Of a stretch of 44,768 nucleotides of DNA, positions 37,450-44,768 are shown piece by piece (within the stretch, counting starts at the first letter, position 1; each line of letters opens with the position of its first letter). A program made the translations under genes and the position numbers. This DNA comes from Bacteroidia bacterium. Lineage in GTDB: Bacteria; Bacteroidota; Bacteroidia; B-17B0; Aurantibacillaceae. The notes under the pieces are model-generated. The model saw only the letters and a program-made list of their open reading frames with translations, did not search any database and was not told where the DNA came from. The stretch lies in the NCBI GenBank assembly GCA_026415195.1, contig JAOAHO010000006.1:1-44768 (forward strand), written 5' to 3'.

Positions 37450-37474
37450 ATATACTACTAATTTTGTAGAAAAT
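37450..37474 (+). promoter_or_regulatory. Palindromic operator candidate overlapping the rrf2 promoter
   Basis: ATATACTA, nine bases, then TAGAAAAT form an imperfect 25-bp palindrome with the same geometry as the site upstream of the sulfite reductase operon; the 16-mer AAATATACTACTAATT (37448-37463) is identical in the two. It covers the -7 element TAATTTTG (37459-37466) of the Rrf2 gene, so a bound regulator would block its own transcription. Inferred autoregulation. Confidence 0.55.
37459..37466 (+). promoter_or_regulatory. Candidate -7 element (TAATTTTG) for the Rrf2-family gene
   Basis: TAATTTTG fits TAnnTTTG and would start transcription near 37473, about 7 nt before the ATG. It is wholly inside the palindromic operator candidate. 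Confidence 0.5.
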
Positions 37475-37479
37475 AATTT

Positions 37480-37932
37480 ATGCTACCTCAAAAAACCAAA
37501 TATGCGATTAAAGCCCTGACTTATCTGGCCAAAAATTTTCTGGAGGAAAGGCCGGTAAGTATTGCCATGATTGCCAAAGAAGAAAAAATTCCAAGAAAGT
37601 TCCTTGAGCTTATTTTGCTTGATCTTAAAAAAAAGGGATATGTCAAAAGCGCTATGGGTTCCAAAGGCGGGTATTTGCTGAGCCGCCATCCAGAGGAAAT
37701 TATTTTAAGCCACGTCATCCGATCGACCGGCGGCCCCATTTCACTTTTGTCCTGTGTCAGTGTGAATTTCTACAAACCCTGTGCAGAATGTGAAAGCGAG
37801 GAACACTGTGCCCTGAGAAAAGTGATGCTGGATGTGAGGGAAGCATGCCTGAAAATACTTTCCAAAACCTCCTTGTTTGATTTAATTCAACTTGAAAAAA
37901 AACTCAAAAGAAAAAACAAGAACTCTGAATAG
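37480..37932 (+). CDS. Rrf2-family transcriptional regulator, likely of sulfur assimilation
   Basis: A 150-residue winged-helix regulator. The DNA-binding part is KTKYAIKALTYLAKNF followed by IAMIAKEEKIPRKFLELILLDLKKKGYV and the wing GSKGGYLLSRHPEEI. A cysteine cluster follows at 92, 101, 104 and 110 (C-x8-C-x2-C-x5-C), in the area where IscR-type relatives bind [2Fe-2S]; those usually use three Cys at 92, 98 and 104. It may sense a cofactor or sulfide/cysteine status. It lies just upstream of the sulfate reduction operon, and identical 16-mers in its own promoter region and upstream of that operon suggest that it regulates both. Confidence 0.88.
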   Translation: MLPQKTKYAIKALTYLAKNFLEERPVSIAMIAKEEKIPRKFLELILLDLKKKGYVKSAMGSKGGYLLSRHPEEIILSHVIRSTGGPISLLSCVSVNFYKPCAECESEEHCALRKVMLDVREACLKILSKTSLFDLIQLEKKLKRKNKNSE

Positions 37933-37951: not shown

Positions 37952-37976
37952 ATATACTATTTAATTAGTAGTATAT
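37952..37976 (-). promoter_or_regulatory. Palindromic operator candidate upstream of the sulfate reduction operon
   Basis: ATATACTA and TAGTATAT are perfect 8-bp arms around nine bases. The 16-mer AAATATACTACTAATT found over the rrf2 promoter recurs here on the opposite strand (37963-37978). The site ends 21 nt before the -33 box of the operon promoter, a position more typical of an activator than of a blocking repressor. Confidence 0.6.
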
Positions 37977-37997
37977 TTAATTTTTTTTCGAAAAAAA

Positions 37998-38030
37998 TTT
38001 GGAGCTTGGAATATTTTTTCCATATCTTTG
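37998..38030 (+). promoter_or_regulatory. Complete Bacteroidota promoter for the sulfate reduction operon
   Basis: TTTG at 37998-38001, 21 nt, then TATCTTTG at 38023-38030 match the -33 and -7 consensus with correct spacing. This is the best promoter in the window. Predicted start near 38037, followed by a leader of about 135 nt that contains a small ORF. Confidence 0.7.
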
Positions 38031-38046
38031 CGTCAACATTTACTCG

Positions 38047-38115
38047 ATGACCCAAAAATTAAATCTAAACTTTGTTCACTCAAAAAATGCCCGAATAATG
38101 CGATGTTGGGCATAA
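38047..38115 (+). CDS. 22-codon leader peptide ORF, candidate cysteine-sensing attenuator
   Basis: An ORF starting about 10 nt after the predicted transcription start encodes MTQKLNLNFV, then HSKNARIM and finally RCWA before TAA, leaving 56 nt to the sulfite reductase start. The last codons lie in a possible hairpin, ATGCCC (38087-38092) with GGGCAT (38108-38113), and the Cys codon TGT (38104-38106) is in its loop. A second weak pairing, TTGATTT (38117-38123) with AAATCAA (38153-38159), lies between the leader and the main gene. I infer that slow decoding of Cys when cysteine is scarce changes folding and raises operon expression. There is only one Cys codon, so this is a hypothesis, but position and sequence are unlikely to be idle. 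Confidence 0.5.
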   Translation: MTQKLNLNFVHSKNARIMRCWA

Positions 38116-38171
38116 ATTGATTTGCTATTTCAATATTTCATTGCTTTTAATAAAATCAAACCAAAAATCAT

Positions 38172-40277
38172 ATGCAAAGCTTCAGAAGCGAATTGGAAAA
38201 TATCAAATATCCTACTAAAGTAGTAGAAAAAGACATTATTGAACTGGAAAGAAAAATATTTGAATTCAAAAAAGGCCAAATCCATGAAGAAAAATTCCGG
38301 AGTTTGCGCCTGGCCAGGGGAGTTTACGGACAAAGACAAAAAGGAGTACAAATGATTCGGATTAAAATTCCCTACGGTAAAGTCAACACCCGCCAATTAT
38401 TCCGACTTGCTGACATCAGCGACGAATACTCGAACGGCAACTTACACATTACAACAAGGCAAGATGTACAGTTGCATTTTGTGTCTTTGGAACGAACCCC
38501 CGAACTCTGGTATAAACTGGAACAAGACCAACTGACCCTTCGTGAAGCTTGCGGAAATACCGTTAGGAACATTACTGCCTCTGCTGAGGCCGGCATCGAC
38601 CCCAATGAACCTTTTGATGTATCGCCTTATGCCGATGCTTTATTCCGCTATTTCCTCAGAAAACCCTTTTGCCAGGAAATGGGCAGAAAGGTTAAAATTG
38701 CCTTTTCCTCATCCGATGATGATACTGCCTACACCTACATTCATGATTTTGGTTTTATTCCAAAGTTAAAGGATGGAAAAAAAGGATTTAAAGTGCTGGT
38801 AGGCGGAGGATTAGGCGCTCAGCCCTTTCATGCCCAAACGGCATTTGAATTTCTGGAAACAAATCGCATCATTCCGTTTGTTGAAGCTGCGCTCAGGGTG
38901 TTCGATCGTCATGGTGAAAGGACAAACCGCCACAAAGCCCGACTTAAGTATTTAATTGCTAAAATCGGATTGAATGAATTTTTAAAACTGACAGAAGAAG
39001 AAAAAAACAGTTTGAACAGTTCAACGGTGGAAATTGAAGAGTTTCCCTATGAACCCACAACTCAAATTAAAAACCTCCCAGATCGCCTTCCAGAACTTCC
39101 GCAGGAATATCACGAATGGCTTTCAACCAACGTTATCCGTCAAAAGCAGGAAAATTATTATGGTGTTTATTTGAAAATCCGAAAAGGAAACATTTCATCG
39201 CACACCATCAGAGATTTGTGCAAGATTATTGCAAAGTGGGGTAATGAAGAAGAAATACGACTGACCATTGGACAAGGAATTCTGTTAAGGTTTATTCCCA
39301 AGGAACATCTTCCTTTTCTTTATTCAGACCTTAAAACCATCGGATTAGCGGATATTGGAGCAAACTCCGTTGCCGACATCACCTCATGCCCCGGCACCGA
39401 CACCTGCAATCTGGCTATTGCTAACAGCACACAGTTGGCCGTTGAATTGGAAAAAATTATTTTACACGACTTCAGAGAATTGATCAATAACCGTGACATC
39501 AAAATCAAAATAAGCGGATGCATGAATTCGTGCGGCCAGCATGGCCTTGCACATATCGGCTTTCACGGAAGTTCCATAAAATCGGGTGATGTGGTTATTC
39601 CCGCCATGCAGGTGCTTATGGGTGGGCAAAATGCCGGCGAGGGTAAGGGTTTCTTTGCCGAAAAAATCATTAAGCTTCCTACCAAAAGGATCCCCCTCGC
39701 ATTAAAGTTAATTCTTTCGGATTATGAAAATAATGCAAGCCCTGAAACTTATTTTCATGACTATTACAAATCGAAAGGGAAGGATTATTTCTATCGTTTA
39801 CTAAAACCATTATCGGGAACCGAAGAAATTAAAGAAAATGAACTGCTGGATTGGGGGGCTGATGAAAAATTCAAGCCCGAGATCGGTGTCGGGGAGTGTG
39901 CCGGAGTTGTCATCGATTTGGTGCAAACCTTATTGTTCGAAGCCGAGGAAAAAATCGAATTTGCCCGTGATGCCTTTCAGGAAGGCCTCTATTCCGATTC
40001 CATCTACCACAGCTACTCCTCCTTTATTCATGCAGCCAAAGCAATTTTGCTTGAAAAAGAAATTCATGTGAATACGCATCATTCATTAATCAAAGAATTT
40101 GACAAGCATTTCAGTGAAACTTTTAAAATACCCGGAACGGAGAATTTTGAAAAAACCGTTTTGCTCATAAAACAAACTCCGCCGGGCCGTGAATTTGCAG
40201 GACAGTATATGGAGTTGGCAAAGAGCTTTCTTAAACTATGCAGGGAATATAAGAATCAAGTAATTGCCACCACATGA
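38172..40277 (+). CDS. Siroheme sulfite (or nitrite) reductase fused to a C-terminal HEPN domain
   Basis: A 701-residue protein. Residues about 25-545 form a ferredoxin-type siroheme reductase with two half-repeats; the [4Fe-4S]/siroheme cysteines are C406 and C412 (CPGTDTC) and C450 and C454 (CMNSC). From about 590, EEKIEFARDAFQEGLYSD to HHSLIKEFDKHF is a helical HEPN-type domain without the RxxxxH nuclease motif. Context (siroheme genes, cysH, cysDN) makes sulfite the substrate and ferredoxin the likely donor, since no flavoprotein cysJ is seen. HEPN may bind nucleotide, RNA or a partner. First gene of the operon; the stop overlaps the next start by 4 nt. The linker before HEPN (WGADEKFKPEIGVGECAG) is distinctive. 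Confidence 0.9.
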   Translation: MQSFRSELENIKYPTKVVEKDIIELERKIFEFKKGQIHEEKFRSLRLARGVYGQRQKGVQMIRIKIPYGKVNTRQLFRLADISDEYSNGNLHITTRQDVQLHFVSLERTPELWYKLEQDQLTLREACGNTVRNITASAEAGIDPNEPFDVSPYADALFRYFLRKPFCQEMGRKVKIAFSSSDDDTAYTYIHDFGFIPKLKDGKKGFKVLVGGGLGAQPFHAQTAFEFLETNRIIPFVEAALRVFDRHGERTNRHKARLKYLIAKIGLNEFLKLTEEEKNSLNSSTVEIEEFPYEPTTQIKNLPDRLPELPQEYHEWLSTNVIRQKQENYYGVYLKIRKGNISSHTIRDLCKIIAKWGNEEEIRLTIGQGILLRFIPKEHLPFLYSDLKTIGLADIGANSVADITSCPGTDTCNLAIANSTQLAVELEKIILHDFRELINNRDIKIKISGCMNSCGQHGLAHIGFHGSSIKSGDVVIPAMQVLMGGQNAGEGKGFFAEKIIKLPTKRIPLALKLILSDYENNASPETYFHDYYKSKGKDYFYRLLKPLSGTEEIKENELLDWGADEKFKPEIGVGECAGVVIDLVQTLLFEAEEKIEFARDAFQEGLYSDSIYHSYSSFIHAAKAILLEKEIHVNTHHSLIKEFDKHFSETFKIPGTENFEKTVLLIKQTPPGREFAGQYMELAKSFLKLCREYKNQVIATT

Positions 40278-41062
40278 AGAAAAATATTGTTCATAAGCCA
40301 AAATTATACATCGTAGGCGCGGGTCCCGGAGATCCTGAATTGATAACGTTTAAGGCATTACGCATTCTAAAAAATGCCGATGTGGTCTTTTATGATGCTT
40401 TGATCGATCCCCAACTCTTGGATTTTACTAAAACGGATTGCATAAAAATTTTCACGGGTAAAAGGAAAAACCGGCATGCTTTCACTCAGGAACAAATTCA
40501 TGAACTGATCCTACACTATTCGCAAAAATATGGCACCCTTGTCCGCCTTAAAGGAGGAGACCCTTTTGTTTTCGGAAGAGGATTTGAAGAAATTCAATTT
40601 GCCTCAGACAATGGTATCGAAACTGAATATGTTCCGGGCATTTCGAGTGCCATTGCCGTTCCCGGCATTTTTGGCATTCCCTTAACGGCAAGGGGGATAA
40701 GTAACAATTTTACCGTCATCACTGCCACTTCCGGGAAGGGAGAGCTAACCTCGAACATAAGAAAAGCCATTCAGGCATCCGGTACCCTTGTTATTCTGAT
40801 GGGACTAAATAAAATCCATGATATTCTGAAAATTTATGAGTTGCTGAATAAGCATGATACACCAGTAGCCGTGCTTCAAAACGGTACATTTAAAAATCAG
40901 AAAATGATATACGGAACCGTTTCCACCATCCGGAAAAAAATTCATGAACTTGTACCGGAATGGCCTTCCATCATTATCACAGGCGATGTGGTGAAAGCGG
41001 GCATGGATATTTTGAAAAAGAAAAAATTACCTCGTCAACAAAAAACCCTTGAATTACTGTGA
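40274..41062 (+). CDS. cobA: Uroporphyrinogen-III C-methyltransferase (SUMT)
   Basis: A 262-residue SAM-dependent enzyme that makes precorrin-2 from uroporphyrinogen III, the first step to siroheme. The signature VGAGPGDPELITFKALRIL begins the protein; VRLKGGDPFVFGRG, VPGISSAIAVPGIFGIPLT and VILMGLN follow as in the family. Its length is standard. It overlaps the sulfite reductase stop by 4 nt, and the next gene starts within or just after its stop, so it belongs firmly to the operon. The product is the substrate of the dehydrogenase domain encoded by the next gene. Confidence 0.95.
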   Translation: MKKNIVHKPKLYIVGAGPGDPELITFKALRILKNADVVFYDALIDPQLLDFTKTDCIKIFTGKRKNRHAFTQEQIHELILHYSQKYGTLVRLKGGDPFVFGRGFEEIQFASDNGIETEYVPGISSAIAVPGIFGIPLTARGISNNFTVITATSGKGELTSNIRKAIQASGTLVILMGLNKIHDILKIYELLNKHDTPVAVLQNGTFKNQKMIYGTVSTIRKKIHELVPEWPSIIITGDVVKAGMDILKKKKLPRQQKTLELL

Positions 41063-42570
41063 CTATGGCTTCAAAAGAGGTATTGGATATTGAAAATAAA
41101 AATCTGCTTTTTCCTGTTTTTTTGAAGTTGGAAGGGCGGGAAGTGCTGATTATAGGGGGCGGACAAGTAGCATTGGAAAAAATCAACACTTTGTTAGACA
41201 ACAACCCAAATACGTCCATCAAAGTTGTATCTAAAGACATTATACCAGAAATTACGGAATTATCCAACGCATATCCTAATCTAAAAATCATCAAAAAAGC
41301 TTATGAACCCGCCGACCTCGAAGGCATCGACTTAGTCATTACGGCAACCGATGATCTTTCGGTTACCGCCGGAGTCAGGGAAGATGCCCGAAAAAAAGGC
41401 ATATGGATGAATTCGGCCGACAAGCCGGAATTATGTGATTTTTATTTGGGGTCGGTGGTTCAAAAAGGACATCTGAAAATTGCCATATCCACCAACGGAA
41501 AATCGCCCATCATGGCAAAAAGAATCAAAGAATCGCTTTCCTATGCTTTCCCGGGAGAAATTCACGAAGTGTTGGAAAACTTGTATGAGATAAGAAAAAA
41601 TCTGAAAGTAGATTATCATCAAAAAGTCAAAACCCTCCGGAATATCACAAAAAGTTTTTCCGAACAACAAAAAAAACATACACTGCTCAGACAAATCAGG
41701 CGTACCTCTCTGTATTCCTTATGTATCTTACTGATTATGGTATTGGGGCATTTACTTTTCAGCGCCCTGACTTTTCAGGAAATCTGGACTGCCATCTCAG
41801 GAACCCTTAGCACGGAAATTTTGATTTACATGGGCGGTGGCTTCATGGCACAAATGATCGACGGTGCCCTGGGCATGGCCTATGGCGTGAGTGTTACCAC
41901 TTTTCTGCTTGGTCTTGGAATACCATCCATCACTCCTGCCATTGCCAGTGCGAGCATGCATGCCTCTGAAATTTTCACCACCGGCACATCCTCGTTGGTG
42001 TATATGCGATATAAAAACATCAATAAAAAACTATTCAAAAGTTTGGTTATCCCGGGTATTTTGGGCGCCATGGGTGGAGCATTGTTTATTTCCATCCTGA
42101 GCAAAAAATACGTTACCTATGTCCGGCCGCTAGTGGCCGTTTATACACTCACATTGGGAATTATCATCATTAAAAGGGCCATGGGCAGTTCCATTCACAT
42201 CAAAAATAAAATCAAAAAAATATTTCCTATTGCTTTTTTCGGCGGTTTTCTTGATTCGGTAGGAGGAGGCGGATGGGGCCCGATTGTTACTACTTCACTG
42301 ATTGCCGGCGGACGCGACCTAAGGAATACCATCGGATCCTCGCACCTGGCAAAATTCTTTGTGGCATTGGTGAGTACCATAACTTTTGTAGGTATTATCG
42401 GGCTGAGCCATTGGAAAATTATTTTCGGACTGATTGTAGGAGGAATGCTGGCCGCTCCCATATCTATTTACCTTTCACAAAAAATACCCACAAAAAAAGG
42501 GCTTATATTGGTGGGTTCCCTGGTTATTCTGATAAGCTTAAAAATTTTTGTTCAGTCCCTGTTTAAATAA
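41059..42570 (+). CDS. Fusion of siroheme synthase (precorrin-2 dehydrogenase) and TSUP/TauE-type transporter
   Basis: A 503-residue fusion. The N-terminal ~210 residues are the NAD-binding precorrin-2 dehydrogenase/ferrochelatase of siroheme synthesis (CysG N-terminal or Met8 type): VLIIGGGQVALEKINTLL, VITATDD, and GKSPIMAKRIKESL. After a linker come about eight transmembrane segments of the TauE/SafE (TSUP) sulfite/sulfonate transporter family, with GGFMAQMIDGALGMAYGVS near residue 255 and GGFLDSVGGGGWGPIV. I infer coupling of siroheme supply to movement of sulfite or sulfate, perhaps sulfite export or anion uptake. The start may be GTG 41059 (overlapping the SUMT stop by 4 nt) or ATG 41065. 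The next gene follows after 6 nt. Confidence 0.88.
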   Translation: MTMASKEVLDIENKNLLFPVFLKLEGREVLIIGGGQVALEKINTLLDNNPNTSIKVVSKDIIPEITELSNAYPNLKIIKKAYEPADLEGIDLVITATDDLSVTAGVREDARKKGIWMNSADKPELCDFYLGSVVQKGHLKIAISTNGKSPIMAKRIKESLSYAFPGEIHEVLENLYEIRKNLKVDYHQKVKTLRNITKSFSEQQKKHTLLRQIRRTSLYSLCILLIMVLGHLLFSALTFQEIWTAISGTLSTEILIYMGGGFMAQMIDGALGMAYGVSVTTFLLGLGIPSITPAIASASMHASEIFTTGTSSLVYMRYKNINKKLFKSLVIPGILGAMGGALFISILSKKYVTYVRPLVAVYTLTLGIIIIKRAMGSSIHIKNKIKKIFPIAFFGGFLDSVGGGGWGPIVTTSLIAGGRDLRNTIGSSHLAKFFVALVSTITFVGIIGLSHWKIIFGLIVGGMLAAPISIYLSQKIPTKKGLILVGSLVILISLKIFVQSLFK

Positions 42571-42576
42571 AAATGT

Positions 42577-43290
42577 ATGAACGAAGAAAGGAAACACATA
42601 ATCGAACTCATTAAAGATAAAATAAAAAACAAAAATGCATTTGAAATATTGGAATTTATCAGCAATTTGAAAGAGGAAAAACCGGCATTTTCCAGTAGTT
42701 TGGGGATGGAAGACCAGGTGATTACGCACATGATTGCCAAAGGAAAATTCAATATTGAAATTTTCACCCTGGATACGGGAAGAAATTTCCCGGAGTTTTA
42801 TCAGGTACTGAATAAAACCATAAAAAAGTACTCCATTCCCATAAAAACTTATTTCCCGGATACCGAAAAAGTAGAAGCGTTGGTAAATGAAAAAGGGCCT
42901 TTCAGTTTTTATGAAAGCATCGAGAACAGAAAAGAATGTTGCCAAATTCGAAAAGTGCTTCCCCTTAAAAGGGCCCTCAAAGGAAAAAGCATCTGGATTA
43001 CCGGTATTCGTTCGGAACAATCCGACAAAAGAAAAAATTTTGAACAGGTAGAATGGGATGAACACAATCAAATCATTAAAATTCATCCGCTGCTGCACTG
43101 GACATGGGAAGAAGTGAAGCAATATGTGAAAGAAAATCAGGTACCCTATAACATACTCCACGATAAAGGATTTGTGAGTATTGGTTGCCAACCTTGCACA
43201 AGGGCCATTGCAGAAGGAGAACATTTCCGGGCAGGGCGCTGGTGGTGGGAAGACACAGAAAAAAAAGAATGTGGATTACATAACCGATAA
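42577..43290 (+). CDS. cysH: APS/PAPS reductase of the iron-sulfur type
   Basis: A 237-residue adenylyl-sulfate reductase that releases sulfite using thioredoxin as donor. The substrate loop is SSSLGMEDQVIT with TLDTGRNFPE after it. The two cysteine pairs C121-C122 (KECCQIRKVLPL) and C204-C207 (SIGCQPCTR) mark a [4Fe-4S] cluster and point to APS, rather than PAPS, as substrate; the catalytic Cys is in the C-terminal ECGLH (C232). That removes the need for an APS kinase. It starts 6 nt after the transporter fusion and ends 11 nt before cysD. Confidence 0.93.
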   Translation: MNEERKHIIELIKDKIKNKNAFEILEFISNLKEEKPAFSSSLGMEDQVITHMIAKGKFNIEIFTLDTGRNFPEFYQVLNKTIKKYSIPIKTYFPDTEKVEALVNEKGPFSFYESIENRKECCQIRKVLPLKRALKGKSIWITGIRSEQSDKRKNFEQVEWDEHNQIIKIHPLLHWTWEEVKQYVKENQVPYNILHDKGFVSIGCQPCTRAIAEGEHFRAGRWWWEDTEKKECGLHNR

Positions 43291-43301
43291 ATGAATATCG
43301 T

Positions 43302-44207
43302 ATGCCAAAAACAGATTATCTGGATTATCTGGAAAATGAAGCCATCTATATCCTGAGGGAAGTGGCCGGGCAATTCGACAGGCCAGCATTGCTTTTCAGT
43401 TGCGGTAAAGACAGTATTTGCCTTTTGCATTTGGCGCTTAAGGCATTCCGTCCCGGAAAGTTTCCTTTCCCGTTGGTGCATATCGATACCGGGCATAATT
43501 TTCCGAGTGTTTTGGAATTCAGGGACCGGTTGATTGATAAAATAGGTGAAAATTTAATTGTAAGAAAAGTTGAAGACACCATCAGGAAAAGAAAACTTCA
43601 GGATGCAAAAGGGAAATTCCCAAGCCGCAATGCCCTGCAAACCTATACTTTGTTGGATACCATAGAGGAATTTGAATTTGATGCCTGCATCGGGGGTGCA
43701 CGGCGCGACGAGGAGAAAGCCCGTGCCAAGGAAAGGGTCTTTTCCGTGAGGGATGAATTCGGACAATGGGATCCAAAAAATCAGAGGCCCGAGCCCTGGA
43801 TCAACTATAACGGTAAAATACATAAAGGAATGAACGTCAGGGTATTCCCCCTGAGCAACTGGACCGAACTGGATGTATGGAATTATATCAAAAGAGAAAA
43901 TATATCAATACCGGAAATATATTTCGCTCATGAAAGAAAAGTGGTTCAGGCCGAGAATGGCCAACTGATGGCATGGTCGGAATTTTTAAATCTGGATGAA
44001 AACGATATTATCCTAACCAAACGGGTCAGATACAGGACCGTTGGCGATATGACCTGTACGGCTGCCATTGAAAGCAACGCACGAACCGTTGATGAAATCA
44101 TACAAGAACTTCTGGAAAGCAAGATCAGCGAAAGGGGAGCAACCCGTATGGACGACCGCATCAGCGAGGCAGCCATGGAAGATCGTAAAAAACAAGGTTA
44201 TTTTTAA
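43302..44207 (+). CDS. cysD: Sulfate adenylyltransferase subunit 2
   Basis: A 301-residue ATP sulfurylase catalytic subunit that makes APS from sulfate and ATP together with the GTPase subunit CysN. It belongs to the PP-loop superfamily; the loop is SCGKDS, and ICLLHLALKAF, PLVHIDTGHNFPSVLEFRD and FDACIGGARRDEEKARAKER follow. The C-terminus with RGATRMDDRISEAAMEDRKKQGYF is standard. It is preceded by cysH and followed after 6 nt by cysN, in the usual order for this pathway. There are no oddities in length. Confidence 0.96.
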   Translation: MPKTDYLDYLENEAIYILREVAGQFDRPALLFSCGKDSICLLHLALKAFRPGKFPFPLVHIDTGHNFPSVLEFRDRLIDKIGENLIVRKVEDTIRKRKLQDAKGKFPSRNALQTYTLLDTIEEFEFDACIGGARRDEEKARAKERVFSVRDEFGQWDPKNQRPEPWINYNGKIHKGMNVRVFPLSNWTELDVWNYIKRENISIPEIYFAHERKVVQAENGQLMAWSEFLNLDENDIILTKRVRYRTVGDMTCTAAIESNARTVDEIIQELLESKISERGATRMDDRISEAAMEDRKKQGYF

Positions 44208-44213
44208 ATTATT

Positions 44214-44768
44214 ATGGAACTCTTAAGGTTTTTCACAGCAGGCAATGTAGACGACGGTAAAAGCACCCTGATTGGCAGGTTGCTCTTCGACAGCAATGCC
44301 CTATCAACCGATATTATTCAAACCCTGACAAGGCAGAGTAAGGCCAAATCAGCCGATACCAACATAGACCTTGCACTGATTACCGATGGGCTGCGTTCAG
44401 AACGCGAACAGGGAATAACCATTGATGTGGCGTATAAATACTTCAGCACCCCAAAAAGGAAATTTATCATTGCCGATACCCCCGGTCATGTTCAATATAC
44501 CCGAAATATGTTTACGGGCGCTTCCCTGTGTGATGTGGCCGTTATTCTGGTGGATGCTCGTAACGGCATAACCGAGCAAACCAAACGCCATACGATGATT
44601 TCATCCCTGTTGCGCATTCCGCACATTGTGGTATGCGTGAATAAAATGGATATGTTCGATTACGATGAAAAAGTTTTTCATAACATCGTATCCCATTTTC
44701 TAGAATTCACCAAAGAACTTCAAACCGGATGCGTTACGTTTATCCCCTGCAGTGCATTGTGCGGCGAC
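44214..44768 (+). CDS. cysN: Sulfate adenylyltransferase subunit 1 (partial, N-terminal 185 codons)
   Basis: The N-terminal GTPase domain of CysN, which uses GTP hydrolysis to drive APS synthesis by CysD. The G1 motif is [15 protein letters not shown]; then comes [17 protein letters not shown] (G2), [12 protein letters not shown] (G3) and NKMD (G4). The frame is still open at the window end, so the elongation-factor-like domains II and III, and any C-terminal APS-kinase fusion (CysNC), lie outside. Given the iron-sulfur type CysH upstream, I expect plain CysN. Confidence 0.95.

Follow-up and report, generated by a model that had tools for sequence, protein, structure and literature searches.

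The window, by which we mean the whole 44,768-nucleotide stretch of DNA analysed here, ends in a sulfate-assimilation operon on the forward strand. Its first gene (38172..40277, +) encodes a sulfite reductase hemoprotein (PF01077, PF03460) whose C-terminal part is a HEPN domain (PF05168). The remaining operon (40274..44768, +) encodes uroporphyrinogen-III methyltransferase, a CysG-N/TauE fusion, CysH, CysD and CysN; these genes were assigned by profile matches, except for CysN, which was read from an ORF that runs off the window end. In the fusion protein (41059-42570), a CysG N-terminal (precorrin-2 dehydrogenase-like) domain is joined to a TauE/SafE exporter domain. Upstream of the operon, at 37480..37932 (+), lies the gene of an Rrf2-family transcription regulator that is CymR/IscR-like (Pfam PF02082, E = 1.4e-35; TIGR00738 above cut-off). 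The protein carries a cysteine cluster (C..C.x.C..C) and scores 73 bits with the CymR model, below that model's cut-off of 195. We regard it as a candidate repressor of the adjacent sulfate-assimilation operon. Behind its gene, we read from the sequence an operator-like palindrome, TATACTATTTAATTAGTAGTATA (37953..37981, no strand assigned). Half-sites resembling it also occur upstream of the Rrf2 gene, at about 37450-37470. By eye, relatives show CTACTA/TAGTAG or CCTAT/ATAGG sites upstream of the operon promoter, even where the leader ORF described below is missing.

Between the palindrome and the reductase gene lies a TTTG-N21-TATCTTTG element (37998..38030, +; TTTG at 37998-38001, a 21-nt spacer, TATCTTTG at 38023-38030), which we take, going by the known consensus, to be a Bacteroidota-type promoter. 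A sigma-70 promoter scan, a method unsuited to Bacteroidota, did not detect it. Transcription is predicted to start at about 38034-38038. The leader ORF follows at 38047..38115 (+), where relatives have their Cys-run leader, and encodes MTQKLNLNFVHSKNARIMRCWA: it starts with ATG at 38047, stops with TAA at 38113-38115, and has 22 codons ending in R-C-W-A, the sole Cys codon being 38104-38106. An earlier note on this DNA had described just such an ORF behind a well-formed promoter, and the sequence bears it out. Counted from the first base of the -7 box, the ORF lies 24 nt downstream; relatives have the same type of box at a similar distance, mostly 16-19 nt, in a few cases 12-28 nt or further.

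The end of the ORF is covered by a hairpin without a U-tract (38087..38113, +), in which ATGCCC (38087-38092) pairs with GGGCAT (38108-38113) and the Cys codon sits in the loop, again as the note had it. This hairpin has a folding energy of -10.2 kcal/mol, and an equally stable 34-nt piece was found in 1/300 dinucleotide shuffles. The second pairing claimed by the note, TTGATTT/AAATCAA before the reductase start codon, is present but weak (-3.4 kcal/mol). It falls in the spacer at 38116..38171 (+), where relatives have a terminator; a terminator scan found no intrinsic terminator between 38047 and 38172, from the ORF to the sulfite reductase. The window leader likewise has none of the RNA pairing found in relatives (see below): no region-2/3 pairing, no region 3 and no antiterminator partner. 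An Rfam search of the window gave no match at gathering score, and no second Cys leader was found upstream of the window's Rrf2 gene.

Dinucleotide shuffles of 38031-38171 served to gauge how much of this arrangement chance could produce. In 23% of the shuffles an ORF starting with ATG reaches 22 codons or more; one of 15 codons or more that has Cys among its last six arises in 9.5%, and a 6-bp hairpin of some kind in 76%, so that the window ORF, taken alone, is thin evidence. The whole 5' leader of the window is not more stably folded than its shuffles (z = +0.65), and in the window alone the stability of the hairpin is the only unusual feature. When a leader HMM trained on 24 leaders of the family was run against all 601 short ORFs of the window, the window ORF ranked 12th, with no significant similarity to the leaders of relatives; a match to this model was dropped as evidence of homology. 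The position of the ORF, close behind the promoter and at the head of the operon, agrees with that of the relatives' leaders, and its sequence is not above chance.

Homologues of the reductase were found in 34 of 87 family genomes (an order-level search gave the same 87 genomes). A class-wide sample of 396 genomes yielded them in 94, and all but the weakest-scoring of these class matches were followed up. The family comparison set consists of the 28 loci besides the window with enough upstream sequence. In 28/28 of these, a short leader ORF rich in Cys and Met heads the operon, as in MMCCWMMQRCC and MCCLMMLRCGG (both ending at the stop codon), MMMWMCCCK, SNMMCCKMWM and MWMCCKRKRC. The upstream comparison that the note had proposed thus does find a recurring short ORF with Cys codons, but the KNAR and C-terminal Cys motif expected there does not recur; what is conserved is a run of Cys and Met and, behind it, the region-2 sequence described below. 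The leaders have a median length of 25 codons. Compared with shuffle expectation they are enriched 2.9-fold in Met and 1.9-fold in Cys, the latter figure being partly circular because the leaders were picked for Cys. Some loci have genes added before the reductase (by eye, aldo/keto reductase-, peroxiredoxin-, metX- and homoserine dehydrogenase-like), and there the leader precedes the first added gene, which is where a control element of the operon should stand.

An intrinsic terminator stands behind the leader in 26/28 of these family members, a count that includes L011 (MCLMC) and L137, both judged by eye. The remaining two loci, L135 and L136, show no GC-rich terminator in the 70 nt shown. 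At both, a SAM riboswitch (RF00162; L135 1209-1336 and L136 2010-2137, both on the minus strand) lies about 13 nt upstream of the Cys-run leader ORF (MKHTKSK...MMACCMCCC...), which itself is upstream of a metX-like gene; a two-signal control of sulfur genes is possible there. Rfam models, run on 16 loci with leaders, matched only tRNAs and two SAM riboswitches.

Beyond the family, the leader with terminator was found in 11 other Bacteroidia families, 12 in all. The automatic scan recovered both elements in 24/28 loci of f1, 9/15 of f40, 7/7 of f37, 4/6 of f21, 3/3 of f10, 2/2 each of f43, f44 and f16, and 1/1 each of f19, f45, f25 and f20; it recovered them at 0 loci in f53, f15, f12, f6, f36, f4, f2, f34 and f67. 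The Chitinophagaceae-type loci L037-L040 and L042-L043 have operator-like motifs only and no Cys leader. A scan of all loci that reached as far as 1300 nt 5' of the reductase found 91 intrinsic terminators, of which 72 were preceded by an ORF with a Cys run (CC or CxC). Shuffles of the upstream 200 nt give an expected 4.6, and among control terminators at other places in these loci the figure is 3 of 84. One locus judged a chance match, L082, is still counted in these 72/91 and in the duplex permutation test below, and was left out of the leader HMM and codon, spacing and by-family statistics. Across the family, strict-pattern matches of Cys leader and terminator fall mostly at the sulfate-assimilation operon; those at L118, L119 and L124 were dismissed, as they come without a matching Cys leader. 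Elsewhere in the window's genome, the strict pattern gave no match and a loose version gave 7 matches, compared with 3 in the control.

In the relatives, leader and terminator are connected by a further pairing. A segment at the leader stop codon, 3' of the Cys run and extending partly past the stop codon (region 2, often GCGGAAGG or ACGGAAGG), is the complement of region 3 (CCTTCCGC, CCTCCGTT), which makes up the terminator's 5' arm. The region 2/3 duplex reaches -13.4 kcal/mol within a locus, compared with -10.2 kcal/mol when segments are swapped between loci (0/5000 permutations) and -7.9 kcal/mol with shuffled segments, and the native pairing beats the swapped one in 12/12 families. From the first Cys codon to region 2 the median distance is 20 nt (IQR 18-22), and region 2 lies within 15-25 nt of that codon in 80% of cases, versus 28% for shuffles. 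Covarying antiterminator, terminator and Cys-run leader together make up the layout of a trp-type cysteine attenuator. At 11 loci (L045, L047, L048, L052, L053, L059, L060, L062, L063, L065 and L093), and probably also at L051, two complete leader-terminator units stand in series; no gene of at least 60 codons was seen between the units, and a clear promoter box generally precedes the first unit alone.

The recurrence of these elements, their position, the terminators, the covarying region-2/3 pairing and the spacing were all established by computation. For the relatives, we infer that they work by ribosome stalling. The transcript would start a few bases upstream of the short leader ORF. When Cys-tRNA is scarce, the ribosome would stall at the first Cys codons and leave region 2, about 20 nt further on, free to pair with region 3, the 5' arm of the terminator, so that the operon would be read. 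When cysteine is plentiful, the ribosome would reach the stop codon and cover region 2, the terminator would form and transcription would end. Methionine is perhaps sensed as well. The note's proposal of cysteine-sensing attenuation at this site finds striking support in the relatives (28/28 in the family, and 11 more families), but not in the window copy, which is without terminator and antiterminator.

We interpret the window site as the leader position of a cysteine-sensing, trp-type attenuator, and the window's own copy as a decayed or rebuilt descendant, with a probability of about 0.6. The window copy lacks the Cys run and the terminator. If it descends from a full attenuator, both would have been lost, leaving a single Cys codon and a hairpin that has no U-tract. 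That the copy is derived, and probably decayed, is suggested by its leader position, its single Cys codon without a terminator, and a graded series in f40. The f40 loci range from a full Cys run through one Cys with a terminator (L070) to an operator only; L057 has a short one-Cys ORF with terminator, and L079, L085, L088 and L096 have no leader at all. With Cys run and terminator lost, the window operon would probably be controlled mainly by the adjacent Rrf2-type candidate repressor. The operator-like site and the promoter are intact in the window.

The ORF could instead be a chance ORF, the ancestral attenuator having been wholly lost and only operator and promoter left, which we hold possible though less probable. 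An ORF of equal length in 23% of shuffles, the leader-HMM rank of 12/601, the missing terminator in the window and the operator-only forms in f40 (L079, L085, L088, L096) would all fit; yet the window ORF starts at the expected leader position, its M-R-C-W end resembles several family leaders (MLRCGG, WMRCC), and an unusually stable hairpin is present. Chance ORF and decay overlap as explanations, as the attenuator is no longer working in the window under both. It is doubtful, on the other hand, that the window leader is a working cysteine sensor that does without a terminator. Here ribosome stalling at the only Cys codon would open the ATGCCC/GGGCAT hairpin, and the opened hairpin would alter access for Rho or else translation of the reductase, which lies 57 nt downstream. 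The poly-Cys leaders of mycobacteria, which likewise work without terminators, would be the parallel. A hairpin that exceeds chance (1/300 shuffles) and holds the Cys codon in the loop argues for such a sensor, as do the one-Cys leader kept by L070, albeit with a terminator, and the Cys leaders without terminator known in Actinobacteria (PMC1262725); against it stand the single Cys codon, the weak pairing near the reductase start (-3.4 kcal/mol), a leader that as a whole folds no more than shuffles, and relatives that offer no comparative support for this form. We consider unlikely a broader reading in which many Bacteroidia govern sulfate assimilation by a dedicated near-leaderless Cys/Met attenuator, often doubled and sometimes behind a SAM riboswitch, and the window lineage has turned this into a working terminator-free version that relies on one Cys codon and the hairpin over the end of the ORF.

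A different question is whether the Cys-rich peptide of the relatives is made for its own sake, as a small protein that binds metals or thiols, and is not part of a sensor. Small Cys-rich peptides can, as is generally known, bind metals or thiols; but these peptides diverge outside the Cys/Met run, the terminator comes after the leader ORF, regions 2 and 3 covary at the RNA level partly past the stop codon, and tandem copies precede the same operon, all of which makes this explanation very improbable.

A cysteine attenuator in 12 families of Bacteroidia, often in tandem, provides a testable account of how sulfate assimilation may be tuned to the charging of Cys-tRNA, and its leaders add a class of unannotated small ORFs. 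The full, one-Cys and lost forms offer a natural series for the study of attenuator decay, and the window operon is probably without a control layer that is present in its relatives. Our literature search, which took in few subscription journals, found no cysteine leader or attenuator described for Bacteroidota, and we provisionally regard a cysteine attenuator with terminator as new for Bacteroidia. The suggestion of a previously undescribed Bacteroidota device is borne out, again provisionally, by the relatives but not by the window copy, whose ORF is not above chance. In those parts of the literature that the search covered, Cys-run leaders are described in Actinobacteria only, and without terminators. 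Seliverstov et al. (2005) predicted them before actinobacterial cys operons, with no obvious terminators (PMC1262725), and the mycobacterial ones were shown by Canestrari et al. (2020), as cited in PMC13236596. These leaders, too, are short ORFs with a Cys run near the end, upstream of sulfur assimilation genes; they have no intrinsic terminator and use another route, whereas the Bacteroidia elements have a terminator and a covarying antiterminator, and we do not claim homology between the two. Poly-Cys leaders of Actinobacteria have their Cys run near the stop codon, whereas the window copy has a single Cys codon. Like the CymR/IscR-type Rrf2 repressors of sulfur genes, which act on transcription initiation, the window has an adjacent Rrf2 gene and an operator-like palindrome, though the window protein falls below the CymR model cut-off. 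Within the same phylum, leader-peptide attenuators of the same general mechanism have been reported for amino-acid operons of Flavobacterium psychrophilum (PMC9723704), where the main text mentions none for cysteine. The classical trp, his, ilv and thr attenuators of Proteobacteria and others have a leader peptide, a 2:3 antiterminator and a 3:4 terminator. The window copy is without these RNA parts. The elements of its relatives share all three, and differ in that they would sense cysteine (with Met), have a very short 5' end and often come two in series.
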